Origin: a virus
Strand: one strand, 5' to 3'
DNA length: 61,594 nucleotides
Virus record (IMG/VR): IMGVR_UViG_3300021335_001614
Span: 1-61,594 of that record
Numbering within the stretch: the first letter of the stretch is position 1; each line of letters opens with the position of its first letter. Made by a program: the position numbers and the translations under genes. A model generated the notes under the pieces. That model did not search any database. It saw nothing but the letters and a program-made list of their open reading frames with translations, and was not told the DNA's origin. Of this stretch, positions 18,040 to 59,362 are shown one piece after another.

Positions 18040-18675
18040 TTATTCTGATTTCCAGTAGTACTCATCTGTGTCGCCAAGTCTATATGTGTAACCATTTTCT
18101 ACTTGATAGAATTGAGTGCTTACTTTGAAATCAGGATTTTTAGGTTGCTTTGGGGTTAAGCTATTATCATATACACGCATCCTATTGTTCGGATAGGCTG
18201 CATACTGTCCGTTATCTAGTTCTAATATATTAAAACTTTTATGTTCTTCGGGTATTTCACTAGTGCTGTAATCTATTTCGTCAGCATTTTCATGGTAATT
18301 ATCTAGTGTTAATACATAAGTACCTTTTAATACCTTATGACTACGTGTAAATATTTCAAAATCCATGCTGCCTATAAATTGTTTATATATAGCAGTTACG
18401 CCATAATCCATTGCATTCCAAAATTGTAGGTCTTGCAAAGGTAAATCAGGTTCTGGTTTTTTAGGTTCGCTTACAAAAGCACTGATAGGAAGTTTGTCGT
18501 AAAGTGCGGCATATTCGGGGAGATAAGTTTCAAAGTAAAAAGCTCTACCAGGTATACTTTTTACAGTTACCCAGTGTCCTTCTACAAATTCGCCATGTCC
18601 GCTTTTATGATCCATTAAGTATTCTTTACGGACATAGACTTTTGTGTTAGGTAAGTTTGCTAATAATGCACTCAT
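18040..18675 (-). CDS. hypothetical protein, 211 aa
   Basis: Not assigned. It is soluble, rich in Tyr, Pro and Asp, with no membrane segment. Visible segments are TKVYVRKEYLMDH, GEFVEGHWVTVKSIPGRAFY, FWNAMDYGVTAIYKQFIGS and NNRMRVYDNSLTPKQPKNPD. The C-terminus is probably beta-rich. It starts in the stop region of the 159-residue gene (4-base overlap), so it is the last gene of the block that runs from about 21 kb down. The early promoter for dsbA begins right behind its stop, so the two blocks are separately controlled. Confidence 0.7.
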   Translation of the reverse strand: MSALLANLPNTKVYVRKEYLMDHKSGHGEFVEGHWVTVKSIPGRAFYFETYLPEYAALYDKLPISAFVSEPKKPEPDLPLQDLQFWNAMDYGVTAIYKQFIGSMDFEIFTRSHKVLKGTYVLTLDNYHENADEIDYSTSEIPEEHKSFNILELDNGQYAAYPNNRMRVYDNSLTPKQPKNPDFKVSTQFYQVENGYTYRLGDTDEYYWKSE

Positions 18676-19151
18676 GCTTTAACACATGAGCCTTTCTCAC
18701 CTCTCCTTTTGCCAGGAACTTTTCTATAACCATCCCAGCATTGATCATACATTTTATCATTGCCGTGTGCTTCGTCTACTTCTTTATCGTCTACTTTTTT
18801 TTTAGATTTTTCTTGTAGATTTTTGGTTAAATGTCTTGCAAGGCTGCCTTTGTACGCACTTTCAAACGGCATTTCTACTTCCATGTCACTAGGCTCGTTC
18901 TGTTTTTCAAAATTCATCTTGTAATCGAGATTATGGTAAACATTGCCTAAACCTTCCGCAGCTTTTGTAATCTTAGCCTGTACCCAACCTTCTAAACCTT
19001 CTTGCTCGCTGACACCTTTGAGCATTTCGTGAAGCTTAATTGCATACTTTGCGATTTTATACAGATCTGATCTAGCCATTTGTACTTCATGATCTAGCTC
19101 TGCTGCATGGGCTAAGTCGCCTAAACCTTCTTTAAATTCTTCTTTACGCAT
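18672..19151 (-). CDS. helical protein with C-terminal CWDGY...SC motif, 159 aa
   Basis: The first 110 residues are amphipathic helices (for example SDLYKIAKYAIKLHEMLKGV). The C-terminus CWDGYRKVPGKRRGEKGSC (139-157) is a compact basic motif with two cysteines. I have seen variants of it at the ends of several marine phage proteins; its role is unknown. A GATAAATA late promoter (19175-19182) and a GGAG ribosome site precede the ATG, so the gene is expected late. Together with the coupled small genes upstream it is a candidate internal or structural virion protein. Confidence 0.72.
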   Translation of the reverse strand: MRKEEFKEGLGDLAHAAELDHEVQMARSDLYKIAKYAIKLHEMLKGVSEQEGLEGWVQAKITKAAEGLGNVYHNLDYKMNFEKQNEPSDMEVEMPFESAYKGSLARHLTKNLQEKSKKKVDDKEVDEAHGNDKMYDQCWDGYRKVPGKRRGEKGSCVKA

Positions 19152-19174
19152 GAGTTCTCCAAATATATTTTGTA

Positions 19175-19182
19175 TATTTATC
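19175..19182 (-). promoter_or_regulatory. late promoter box GATAAATA
   Basis: This matches the T4 late -10 box (TATAAATA) in 7 of 8 positions. The predicted start at 19169 gives an 18-base leader containing GGAG before the ATG of the 159-residue gene. It overlaps the last codons of the upstream 70-residue gene. Confidence 0.6.
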
Positions 19183-19390
19183 TCTTTATAACGCCGCCCA
19201 TTAGATTGATATCTGTATCAATAGCATTCTTAGCAGTACCGTCTTTGTTCAATGCTTGCGGTGCTTTTGGTAATCCGTTTTTACCTTTTTTAATTTTCCT
19301 ATATGCTGCAGGAACACTTGCTACTGTTGCAATATTACCTGCTGCAGTAGATCCTGCTGTTGCTGATTCTAATATTTCTCTTACAATCAT
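19178..19390 (-). CDS. small protein with capsid-targeting-like N-terminus, 70 aa
   Basis: The N-terminus MIVREILESATAG resembles T4 capsid-targeting peptides: a short amphipathic start ending in I-L-E followed by a small residue, the specificity of the T4 prohead protease (L/I-x-E). Next comes an Ala/Gly/Thr-rich stretch (GSTAAGNIATVASVPAAYRK), then KIKKGKNGLPKAPQ. It is basic and probably unstructured, as are T4 internal head proteins. The start overlaps the upstream stop by 4 bases. Packaging in the head is inferred. Confidence 0.62.
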   Translation of the reverse strand: MIVREILESATAGSTAAGNIATVASVPAAYRKIKKGKNGLPKAPQALNKDGTAKNAIDTDINLMGGVIKR

Positions 19391-19641
19391 TTTAAAAAAC
19401 CACCATCCATCTTAGACGTTCGTTGGCGTCTTTGTTGCTGTTGCTTTTGTTGCTGTTGTCTTTTCTCTTGTTGACGTCTTTGTCCATACTGGTCTAATTC
19501 GTCTGGTATTTTTTTATTGAAAATCCAATTTGAAGCATCTCTTGCTAGTTGGGTAGGAGTTAGCCTACTTATGCTTCTTCCAAGGCCAGTTTTTCCAAAG
19601 TCAAATTCTAAAAGTTTAGAGTCAACTTCATGTATTTTCAT
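19387..19641 (-). CDS. Gln/Arg-rich small protein, 84 aa
   Basis: The N-terminus MKIHEVDSKLLEF has an L-L-E followed by Phe, a possible prohead-protease site. The middle is a helix (SRLTPTQLARDASNWIFNKK), and the end is a striking low-complexity run of Gln and Arg (positions 53-74, units such as KRQQQQKQQQQ). Such basic tails bind nucleic acid. It is coupled by 4-base overlaps on both sides. Suggested role: internal head or assembly protein. Confidence 0.6.
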   Translation of the reverse strand: MKIHEVDSKLLEFDFGKTGLGRSISRLTPTQLARDASNWIFNKKIPDELDQYGQRRQQEKRQQQQKQQQQRRQRTSKMDGGFLK

Positions 19642-19853
19642 TTTTTCCTTCCTCTAAATTGCACAGGACCTGTCATGTAAGGCTTACTGAACCAAAGTTT
19701 AAACCAATCTTGGTCTCCTGGTTTTAAACCCATTTCCTTTTCTTTTTTCTTTAATGCAGTTGCAGTTTCACTGGGATTTTCATCTATCTTATATTCTGTA
19801 TATCCTGTAAATTCTGTTATACCTGCTAGTTTTTTAAGCTCGTCTAAATTCAT
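19638..19853 (-). CDS. small protein with LKKLAGITE N-terminus, 71 aa
   Basis: It starts MNLDELKKLAGITEFTGY. The helix ending in I-T-E fits the L/I-x-E cleavage rule of T4 prohead proteases. The rest is polar with WFKLWFSKPYMTGPVQFRGR at the end. No known domain. It is coupled by 4-base overlaps to the nucleotidyltransferase upstream and the Gln-rich gene downstream. Confidence 0.58.
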   Translation of the reverse strand: MNLDELKKLAGITEFTGYTEYKIDENPSETATALKKKEKEMGLKPGDQDWFKLWFSKPYMTGPVQFRGRKK

Positions 19854-20698
19854 TTTTTTGGCTGATGCACTTCAGGATGTTGGTGAGTGCCACCAATTTC
19901 TTTATACTTTGCACCCATCTTGTCTAGCATTCGTTTCATATGAGACATTTCTGCCGGAGTGCTAAACGTCATTACTGTATCGGAGTCTTCTTGTCCGTAT
20001 TCTTTTGGATCTTGTTGTGCAAGTGTAGGATAATGTTGTCCTAGTTTGTACCAATCTAGATCACCAGGTGTGTCTATTACCAGTGTTAGTTTAGGTTGTG
20101 GAATAATAGTATCATGGCCTACCATATGTGCTTCATTTACGCTTAAAAGTTCTTGTAATTTTTTAAACATGTCTTCTGCGTAGGGTTGTGCAGCTTGTGT
20201 TATACCTGATTGGAATGCATCAAAATCATTATCCACTACACTTTGTCTAAGTTTTGTTGCACTCATGCCTCGGGCTCCGGGATCATCTGGGTCTCTTTCT
20301 AATCTAACTAGATCAATATTATCAAAATTATAGTTGTGCATTGCAGCTTCTACACCATTATATTTTTTAATAACAGTGCCCATCTTAGCTTCTCCCTCTA
20401 GATATATTAAATTTGTATATCCCATTTTGTATAATCTGTCTGCAGCAACTAAAGCATTTTTTGCTAAACCTACAGCAATATTATTAAAGCTTTTTTGTGC
20501 CCAGTCTAATTTTTCTGCTGCTGATAAAGGATCCGAAGGAAGTTTAGCAGGTCTATCACTTAAAAAGAGGAAAGCATCTCCAGGTTGTTTGACTATTTCT
20601 TGTACTAAAAGCTCATGACCATTTGTTGCAGGATTTAATCTGCCAAAAGCAAATGCAGCAGTTTTACCAGGTGCTTCAAATAGCTGTCTTAACCTCAC
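19850..20698 (-). CDS. nucleotidyltransferase-like protein with capsid-targeting-like N-terminus
   Basis: A 282-residue HIGH-superfamily nucleotidyltransferase. FGRLNPATNGHELLV (18-32) holds the N-x-G-H form of the catalytic motif, and GMSATKLRQS corresponds to the ISSTxxR motif. Relatives are adenylyl- and cytidylyltransferases (NadM, CoaD, TagD types); the substrate is not readable. The start MRLRQLFEA ends in L-F-E before Ala, as in T4 capsid-targeting peptides, so the enzyme may be packaged into the head and cleaved. The C-terminal quarter (LTLVIDTPGDLDWYKLGQHY onward) is an extra strand-rich domain ending HQHPEVHQPKK. Confidence 0.75.
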   Translation of the reverse strand: MRLRQLFEAPGKTAAFAFGRLNPATNGHELLVQEIVKQPGDAFLFLSDRPAKLPSDPLSAAEKLDWAQKSFNNIAVGLAKNALVAADRLYKMGYTNLIYLEGEAKMGTVIKKYNGVEAAMHNYNFDNIDLVRLERDPDDPGARGMSATKLRQSVVDNDFDAFQSGITQAAQPYAEDMFKKLQELLSVNEAHMVGHDTIIPQPKLTLVIDTPGDLDWYKLGQHYPTLAQQDPKEYGQEDSDTVMTFSTPAEMSHMKRMLDKMGAKYKEIGGTHQHPEVHQPKK

Positions 20699-21030
20699 TT
20701 ATAATCACCTTTTTCTATCTGCTTTAATTCTTCTTCACGTATTTTATTCAATAATCTACGTCTATGGTCTTCGTGGAAGATGTCATCTGGCATATTAGCA
20801 AGTTTATATTCCTTGCAATATCTGTTTATGCCTCTTGTAACCATAGGCGACAATATTGAATCAGGATCAAAAGAAGATCCTCCTCTATGCATATCAGCCA
20901 TTTTAGCAACAGTAGGGTAATAATCTTTCCTATAAAACATAGGATCATTTCGCATGAATACTAAAGCATCTTCTACTAAATCAAAATCTATGTTCTTTTT
21001 TAAATTTATTCCTAATTCATTTAATTTCAT
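20695..21030 (-). CDS. hypothetical protein, 111 aa
   Basis: Not assigned. It is a helical protein: DLVEDALVFMRNDPMFYRKD, then VAKMADMHRGGSSFDPDSIL and a basic C-terminus (HEDHRRRLLNKIREEELKQI). The HRGG and Asp/Arg pattern is conserved-looking but I cannot name it. The N-terminal MKLNELGINLKKN resembles its neighbours' starts without a clear cleavage site. It is the first gene of the 4-base-overlap series that leads to the nucleotidyltransferase. Confidence 0.62.
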   Translation of the reverse strand: MKLNELGINLKKNIDFDLVEDALVFMRNDPMFYRKDYYPTVAKMADMHRGGSSFDPDSILSPMVTRGINRYCKEYKLANMPDDIFHEDHRRRLLNKIREEELKQIEKGDYK

Positions 21031-57676: not shown

Positions 57677-57964
57677 ATGTATATCGGAGAACGTGTACAA
57701 AAAAATTCTTACATGCGAAAGTCTAAAAAGGGTTGTAATCATACCTATTATAGAAACAGTATAGAGCTTATTTTACGGTGTGATTGTTGTAATGAAGTTT
57801 TTACTCGCACAAGAGGTAAGATGGATCCTAATAGGATCAACAACAATGTGTTTCATGTATGCGGAAATTGTGATGCAAAGAGGTTTGCACAGCGGAAAGG
57901 TCAGGAAAGGAAAGCAGTTTGGGATTTACCAGCTAGTAGCAATTTAGATATCAGTAAACTTTGA
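57677..57964 (+). CDS. zinc-ribbon-like protein, 95 aa
   Basis: CDCC (about residues 35-38) and CGNC (about 62-65) form a treble-clef or ribbon-type zinc site around FTRTRGKMDPNRI. Flanks are basic (MRKSKKGCNHTYYRN, KRFAQRKGQERK), so nucleic-acid binding is plausible. It overlaps the 3' end of the amidoligase gene, which runs the other way, by 21 bases. The first ATG has no Shine-Dalgarno; a second in-frame ATG at 57713 is possible. Confidence 0.7.
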   Translation: MYIGERVQKNSYMRKSKKGCNHTYYRNSIELILRCDCCNEVFTRTRGKMDPNRINNNVFHVCGNCDAKRFAQRKGQERKAVWDLPASSNLDISKL

Positions 57965-59362
57965 CGGATCTATTTCAACAAACCTCCTTACTTCCATAAA
58001 TCTTTTGTTTTTTGGAGTAACCATTGCAAGGACTCTGTCTAACTTAGCTTCGTCTTTTTTGTCTTTTACAATTATTTTATTTGTTTCGTCTATGGTAGGA
58101 ACACGGAAAAACATCCTGCCGTGATTTTCGAAGAATGATATGTCTTTCGCAATAAAATTACAATGCCGAAAAACAAAGCTTAGAAGAACTCCTGCATCTC
58201 TAGCTTCAACCCACTTATTATCGATGACAATATCTTCTCTTCTAATAAATTCTTTTGCAACTATCGGAAATTCTGCCGATACAAGATAATCTTCTTTTAT
58301 TGATAACTGGTATTCATTAAAACGATCATATAAGTAATTTAAAAAAGGTGCAGCAGTTCTAAGGTTGTTTTTGAAAACGCTATTTGCTCTAGCCCAATAT
58401 TGTTTTTTATATTTTGGTTGCTGCAACTGTTTTGAAAAGTAGGTAATAAAGATCTTTTGCATTCCGTTGTTAAGACCTGAAACTTTTATTAAAGGAATGA
58501 TGTTTGATTTAACTTCTTGTTGTTTTTCTATACCATAACTGGCACCGTGTTCTTGTAAATCCCGCATCTTAACACCAGCTATAGAAAGTTCATTATACTT
58601 GTTCATTATCATTTTAATTGTTCTAGCAAAACTTAATGCAAGTTTAAAAAAACCTAGTATAGTTTCATAGTTAATGTTTTGTCTTTTATCGTTTAGTACT
58701 CCACGCAACCCACGCCATTCAAGTGTACCTTGTCCATGTGGAAAGAGTGCTGAATATTTTTCAAACTCGTCTCGGTTAAACAAATTATCGAATAGATATT
58801 CAACTATTTCCTCTTTGTCCTCGCCTTCGCCTTTCATTTCTTGAGCCATGTGTACTATTTCATCTACGCTGTCTTTCACAGTTTGTACATTAGCATAATC
58901 ATTGTCGTAGAGATTTTGTCCTTTATACGTGGTATACAGTTGCTCGAATAAAGGACTCTGTAACATCATAACAGCGACCCAACTAGACTCAACGGTACTC
59001 ATCTTAGTGATAGGACCTAAACCAAAATGTGCATGCATTCCGCATGTTCGATTTGTGTAAGCACCAAGTTTAAAAAGATCATGTACAAAGTTTGCACAGG
59101 TCATGATGTTAGCAGGTGTAGCAGCCATCTGTCCACCTTTTGCTAAAGCACCTATCCTAAACTCCATTCCAATTTCGTTTCCGTAGACAGTATTAGGCTG
59201 TATGCTGGAATCACTGCCACCATCTACATTGTATTTTTTTGCAAGATCACTATAGACTTTGACCATATCTCCGTCTATAACGCATTCAATTTCAAACCCT
59301 ATAGTAATATCGCTTAACTGTGCTTCGTTTAATTGTTGTTCAAATAACTGTCTTAATAGCAT
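57944..59362 (-). CDS. amidoligase-family enzyme with capsid-targeting-like N-terminus
   Basis: The features of the amidoligase (COOH-NH2 ligase, glutamine-synthetase-like) family are present: TIGFEIECVIDG near the start, DGGSDSSIQPNTVYGNEIGM then EFRIG, and CGMHAHFGLG. Members join amino to carboxyl groups using ATP; in phages they may modify peptides, cell wall or polyamines. I chose the ATG at 59362, where MLLRQLFEQQLNEA mirrors the packaged nucleotidyltransferase's MRLRQLFEA and has an L-F-E site. The earlier ATG at 59452 would overlap the upstream gene by 61 bases. The protein is 472 residues from this start. Confidence 0.75.
   Translation of the reverse strand: MLLRQLFEQQLNEAQLSDITIGFEIECVIDGDMVKVYSDLAKKYNVDGGSDSSIQPNTVYGNEIGMEFRIGALAKGGQMAATPANIMTCANFVHDLFKLGAYTNRTCGMHAHFGLGPITKMSTVESSWVAVMMLQSPLFEQLYTTYKGQNLYDNDYANVQTVKDSVDEIVHMAQEMKGEGEDKEEIVEYLFDNLFNRDEFEKYSALFPHGQGTLEWRGLRGVLNDKRQNINYETILGFFKLALSFARTIKMIMNKYNELSIAGVKMRDLQEHGASYGIEKQQEVKSNIIPLIKVSGLNNGMQKIFITYFSKQLQQPKYKKQYWARANSVFKNNLRTAAPFLNYLYDRFNEYQLSIKEDYLVSAEFPIVAKEFIRREDIVIDNKWVEARDAGVLLSFVFRHCNFIAKDISFFENHGRMFFRVPTIDETNKIIVKDKKDEAKLDRVLAMVTPKNKRFMEVRRFVEIDPSKFTDI

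Follow-up and report, generated by a model that had tools for sequence, protein, structure and literature searches.

The four consecutive minus-strand genes that run from position 20,698 to 19,178 of the window, a 61,594-base fragment from an uncultured T4-like bacteriophage, quite probably encode, as a set, capsid-targeted cargo that is packaged into the head and cut by the prohead protease. The first-pass annotation had likened their N-termini to the sites cut by the T4 prohead protease on internal head proteins and suggested that the products might be effectors injected with the DNA. The reading as capsid targeting and gp21 cleavage is now well supported by the occurrence of the tag on unrelated bodies, a segment common with the capsid protein, the gp21 homologues of relatives and a virion-marked protein of Pseudomonas phage PA5oct. 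Its parts differ in strength: we infer packaging on good grounds, cleavage after the tag glutamate is predicted by analogy with T4, and delivery into the host is plausible from the same analogy.

The operon and its N-terminal tags

The four genes are coupled by 4-base overlaps exactly as first described, and the N-termini read at that time recur in the ORF translations. The first gene (19,850-20,698) has a GTG start and encodes a 282-aa nucleotidyltransferase (NTase) that begins MRLRQLFE-A, with codons 1-8 at 20,675-20,698 and a predicted cut after E8. It is followed by the gene of a 71-aa protein (19,638-19,853, minus strand) with the N-terminus MNLDELKKLAGITE-F (listed as MNLDELKKLAGITEF; codons 1-14 at 19,812-19,853), which combines an LKKLAGITE-F start with a KPGDQDWFKLWF module. 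The third gene (19,387-19,641, minus strand) encodes an 84-aa protein starting MKIHEVDSKLLE-F (listed as MKIHEVDSKLLEF; codons 1-12 at 19,606-19,641), and the fourth (19,178-19,390, minus strand) a 70-aa protein starting MIVREILE-S (codons 1-8 at 19,367-19,390), in which E8 is directly followed by the capsid-like segment SATAGSTAAGNIATV (19,322-19,366, minus strand). An antisense open frame of 81 aa (19,170-19,415, plus strand) covers this last gene. A caller that picks the longest ORF therefore passes over it, so that automatic counts in the window miss the 70-aa gene.

Upstream of the NTase gene, and overlapping it by 4 bases, lies the gene of a 111-aa protein (20,695-21,030, minus strand) without L/I-x-E near its start. 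The downstream edge of the slot in which cargo is exchanged is formed by a 159-aa DHEVQMAR-family protein (18,672-19,151, minus strand) that begins MRKEEFKE-G; F occupies P3 in the window protein, and L/I-x-E is found in several relatives. Neither the 70-aa nor the 159-aa protein matched anything in the phage collection. Far from the operon locus, a 472-aa protein (57,944-59,362, minus strand) also has an NTase-type tag, MLLRQLFE-QQLNE-AQ, when translation is taken to begin at the in-frame ATG at 59,362 (ORF callers start upstream). It is likely to be a further cargo gene, and its one match was a weak one to Amidoligase_2 (Pfam, E 0.15).

The earlier suggestion that one of the four is a nucleotidyltransferase proved right in fold, which is of the NMNAT/PPAT type in the model and its structure matches, while PHROG 3041 names the family cytidyltransferase. 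The domain model (pLDDT 89.7) aligned with NMN adenylyltransferase 1ej2 over 152 residues (Z 15.1, rmsd 2.5 Å, model residues 13-189); the best Foldseek matches were PPAT chains, and NMNAT and PPAT chains scored within 1 Z unit of each other against the model. G27, H28 and S146 are invariant and R151 is nearly so, and we take the first two to be the xGH nucleotide-binding motif and S146/R151 to be the late S..R motif. By its modelled fold and these motifs, the NTase is assigned to the HxGH adenylyltransferase superfamily (NMNAT/PPAT). Residues 1-10 have a pLDDT of 61 and the first strand spans residues 13-19; because the 1ej2 match starts at residue 13, the predicted cut after E8 would spare the whole enzyme fold. 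The typical start among 58 distinct NTases is M-x-L-R-[EQ]-L-F-E. Of the 35 NTases aligned, 34 retain E8, that of HTVC008M being the sole exception, and in the NTases of 33 relatives this residue belongs, like G27, H28 and S146, to the 15 invariant columns. Column entropy averages 1.07 bits for residues 2-8, 1.96 for residues 9-14 and 0.82 for residues 15-30.

Capsid-site segment, head genes and cargo exchange

The window fragment was searched for gp21 and the capsid protein and neither was found, the queries or their parts matching other records, so comparisons with head genes rest on relatives; we count this negative result against the cargo reading. A gp21 homologue (PF03420) is present in 10 of the 14 relatives' records searched, and for the capsid comparison we used relatives' contigs that carry both this locus type and head genes. 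After MIVREILE, the 70-aa protein continues with about 15 residues that are common with the relatives' major capsid protein behind its predicted gp21 site, YLAE-SATAGATSAGNVATL. This site reads ...YLAE-SATAGATSAGNVATLNRV in G002 and ...YLSE-AAGTGATSAGNIATLNRV in G001 and is similar in G006, G008, G019 and G020; the comparison of N-termini with capsid processing sites that the first-pass annotation had proposed thus revealed a resemblance in these relatives, at predicted sites. The relatives' site was aligned by eye with ...FLTE-AEIGG of T4 gp23, the point at which T4 cuts that protein.

The pattern of the capsid-like segment was written after the segment had been seen, and the counts obtained with it are therefore descriptive: 5691 ORFs (tile repeats included) contained it in 34 distinct contexts, 4 capsid and 30 cargo-type, and in nothing else. 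In the locus set, all 28 distinct contexts have E immediately ahead of the segment, and 18 of them have L/I at P3; the other 10 ATAG sites, which have no L/I at P3, count against the cargo reading. For a second body family (GRIVKG...), every one of 31 distinct N-termini places E one or two residues before the body, and 28 have L/I at P3. LKKLAGxxE, the type of tag seen on the 71-aa protein, also directly precedes the ATAG segment inside longer proteins, and the two tag types thus look interchangeable.

Near-identical phages swap the cargo in this slot while mostly keeping the N-termini. Across the upstream gene, the NTase gene and the 71-aa gene, the DNA of L002-L005 is 88.5-96.3% identical to the window, and what sets these loci apart is the body of the third (84-aa) gene, where homology with the window stops within the first codons and resumes at the gene end; the third gene is missing in L005, and its L004 allele, MKLNEIDLSLKD, is without L/I-x-E, which counts against the cargo reading. 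L004 and L005 have extended versions of the fourth gene, with 174 and 153 additional codons, respectively. The homologies that flank the insertion overlap in the window by 14 and 12 bases, which are the codons for E8, S9, A10 and T11, so that a 12-14 bp repeat encoding E-SAT bounds one cargo insertion. Since the inserted stretch ends ...ENIKE-SATAG, both joints of the insertion read hxE-SAT. A fusion of the 84-aa and 70-aa genes occurs in L006, FLE-SATAG forming the junction. We tentatively raise the possibility that the prohead-protease site serves as the joint for cargo exchange, the DNA for the tag and E-SAT acting as a short repeat by which modules enter and leave.

The inserted domain of L004 and L005 was considered as an ADP-ribosyltransferase and rejected, neither such a family nor any other being found in Pfam, PHROGs or NCBIfam and the model having a pLDDT of 50.3. 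Small, basic, Cys-containing modules, such as CWxxYKxVGTKKKNGKxVPNCVP and RRKSFRARHNCDNPGPRTKARYWSCRKW, occur at the ends of differing proteins in L002-L009, L030, L042 and the Melnitz-3 NTase. Other bodies fill the operon in more distant relatives: a 5'-nucleotidase-type domain, a ParB-like domain and a domain resembling polynucleotide kinase that immediately follows a tag.

A control scan of T4 recovered MKTYQEFIAE in IPII and IPIII, MAKINELLRE in gp24 and MELITELFDE in Alt. A 489-aa protein of L011 and its relatives has the N-terminus MKTFQEYLKE-A. T4 gene 61.1 (NC_000866, 18,966-19,130), a 54-aa hypothetical, begins MKTFKEFIKE-D, very like the IPIII tag, and gp61.1 is possibly an unrecognised T4 head protein. 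In the T4 system, the targeting peptides attach to the scaffold core, gp21 cleaves behind L/I-x-E, and the targeting residues are distinct from the processing residues (PMC9026906). That distinction would suit a tag that docks onto some component of the virion or core and stays uncut, its conserved glutamate being part of a docking helix. So would the small gene after the portal in relatives, at the position of core genes 67 and 68 in T4: its product starts MILREL[FY], close to the MLLRELFE of many NTases, and has no E following, which implies that docking can be separate from cutting. Docking alone is nonetheless unlikely to account for our proteins, in which E is kept at varying distances from the body starts, the segment after E is the capsid segment after the predicted cut, and inserted and fused bodies keep hxE at the joint.

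Virion evidence and frequency of the tag in relatives

The capsid protein of G002 is about 67% identical to that of PA5oct, the record of which marks virion proteins found by ESI-MS/MS. Two of the marked proteins are pertinent: gp281 holds ...KVEETASAGASSAGGIASV, the sole match to the segment pattern in 478 ORFs (tile repeats included), and gp333, encoded right after the portal gene, has the N-terminus MKINDIITE. The virion mark was carried by 7 of 16 PA5oct ORFs with the strict motif versus 83 of 444 without it (one-sided P 0.022); we count the 9 strict-motif ORFs that are without the mark against the proposal. The cytidyltransferase of PA5oct, gp177, has neither a tag at its start nor a virion mark. 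The cyanophage-core cytidylyltransferase T4-GC190 was detected in S-SM1 virions (PMC3037559). The S-PM2 copy of the NTase is without the tag, although its family is virion-associated in S-SM1, and it counts against the cargo reading together with the HTVC008M NTase, which is without E.

Proteins resembling lysozymes or transglycosylases, with peptidoglycan-binding domains, have the same kind of tag in L042 (MRLLELFE-A) and L061 (MRYAEFKLFE-E), and from these N-termini wall hydrolases may also be loaded via the tag. Such proteins could sit in tails, which we count against head cargo and which would favour the view that the tagged proteins are virion parts of the neck, baseplate or tail, with the motif acting as an assembly signal there. 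A location outside the head is very improbable, since the motif is linked with the capsid protein segment, with the gene that follows the portal and with the N-termini of the T4 internal proteins, gp24 and Alt.

Within the window alone, [LI]xE ends at residues 7-10 in 4 of 64 ORFs versus a control rate of 4.0% (P = 0.25), which is no enrichment, and by the same loose measure none of six other genomes taken singly had a significant excess (seven sequence sets, the window included). These null results count against the cargo reading. T4 taken singly gave P = 0.009 once a filter for K/R at residue 2 or 3 was added. The excess of [LI]xE is thus not significant inside the window, and it is the relatives that decide the matter. 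For these, 48 of the 80 loci found via the NTase were used, near duplicates having been removed by hand. They yielded 1086 ORFs, which were grouped on their bodies (from residue 16 onward, at 60% mutual coverage) into 372 clusters given a weight of one each. Of the 170 clusters having a member no more than 4 kb from the NTase, 14.2% carry an [LI]xE that ends at residue 8 and 10.0% one that ends at residue 9, compared with a background of about 0.85% per position (residues 20-59), and the Poisson expectation is exceeded with P of about 3e-21 and 4e-13, respectively. In the other 202 clusters, farther from the NTase, residue 8 is at background (P = 0.51) and residue 9 is raised (P = 8e-5). Single-linkage clustering, in which 315 proteins were merged via shared modules, gave no difference between near and far clusters (strict motif in 6 of 82 versus 9 of 166) and was replaced by the clustering with 60% mutual coverage. 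At this locus, the L/I-x-E propeptide-like tag sits on many unrelated bodies. Chance, or an N-terminal helix needed for enzyme folding or oligomerisation with no targeting, would agree with the lack of a significant excess in the window or in single genomes, but is scarcely credible given the position-specific excess among the clusters of the locus, the conserved E of the NTases, the segment common with the capsid protein, the retention of N-termini through body exchange and the position of NTase model residues 1-10 outside the fold.

Proposed packaging model, known systems and implications

In the reading that we prefer, a short N-terminal peptide, either with the core M-x-[LI]-x-[EQ]-[LIF]-[LF]-E or of the longer type LxxLAG[IV]xE, would dock each protein onto the prohead core, and a gp21-family prohead protease would cut after the glutamate and free the mature protein in the head before DNA packaging. 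The NTase and the small proteins would afterwards accompany the genome in the head and, if the analogy with the T4 internal proteins and Alt applies, may pass into the host together with it. Our confidence in packaging plus cutting is highest for the 70-aa protein and the NTase and lower for the products of the 84-aa and 71-aa genes.

The principle is already known from the internal proteins of T4: IPI, IPII, IPIII and Alt likewise have unrelated bodies behind a short N-terminal peptide that ends in L/I-x-E or similar, and gp21 is a feature of the T4 system found also in relatives of the window phage. The present set differs from them in its tags, which are of 8-9 residues or of the LAG type, in the presence of enzyme and multi-module cargo in one operon, and in the reuse of the capsid-site segment as cargo together with internal hxE sites. 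PA5oct (Arenbergviridae) has the same segment and tag form on its ESI-MS/MS-marked gp281 and gp333, but differs in that its cytidyltransferase gp177 has neither a tag nor a virion mark. T4-GC190 of cyanophages, whose S-PM2 copy was found with the window protein, belongs to the same enzyme superfamily as the window NTase, whereas the S-PM2 copy has an additional N-terminal domain where the tag would be. The polyvalent proteins of phages (PMC5512222) are multi-domain, effector-like and presumably packaged and injected, and some cargo of our relatives is also multi-domain; in contrast to those proteins, the domains here are joined by hxE sites and have T4-type tags, and the window cargo is small. 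A literature search for "capsid targeting sequence" and "phage" gave nothing on marine myoviruses as judged by titles and the beginnings of abstracts, which leaves absence from print unproven. As far as our searches reach, what is new is an operon-scale cargo set in an uncultured clade, a capsid-site segment that recurs as a cargo module and a predicted cut site that may double as the exchange joint.

If the cut site does act as such a joint, any enzyme placed behind the tag would be loaded, freed and delivered, and multi-domain cargo would be cut at each hxE. A packaged enzyme of the NMNAT/PPAT type would then act in the first minutes of infection, and it might do so, for example, on NAD-type cofactors drained by host defences. 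The tag is a natural, modular loading signal with many alleles, which makes it useful for testing what determines entry into the phage head, and the existence of a cultured relative, PA5oct, makes the cargo idea testable at once. The findings place an adenylyltransferase and other enzymes among the proteins likely to be packaged and provide a sequence rule by which head-travelling genes may be predicted among the unannotated genes of uncultured T4-like marine phages.
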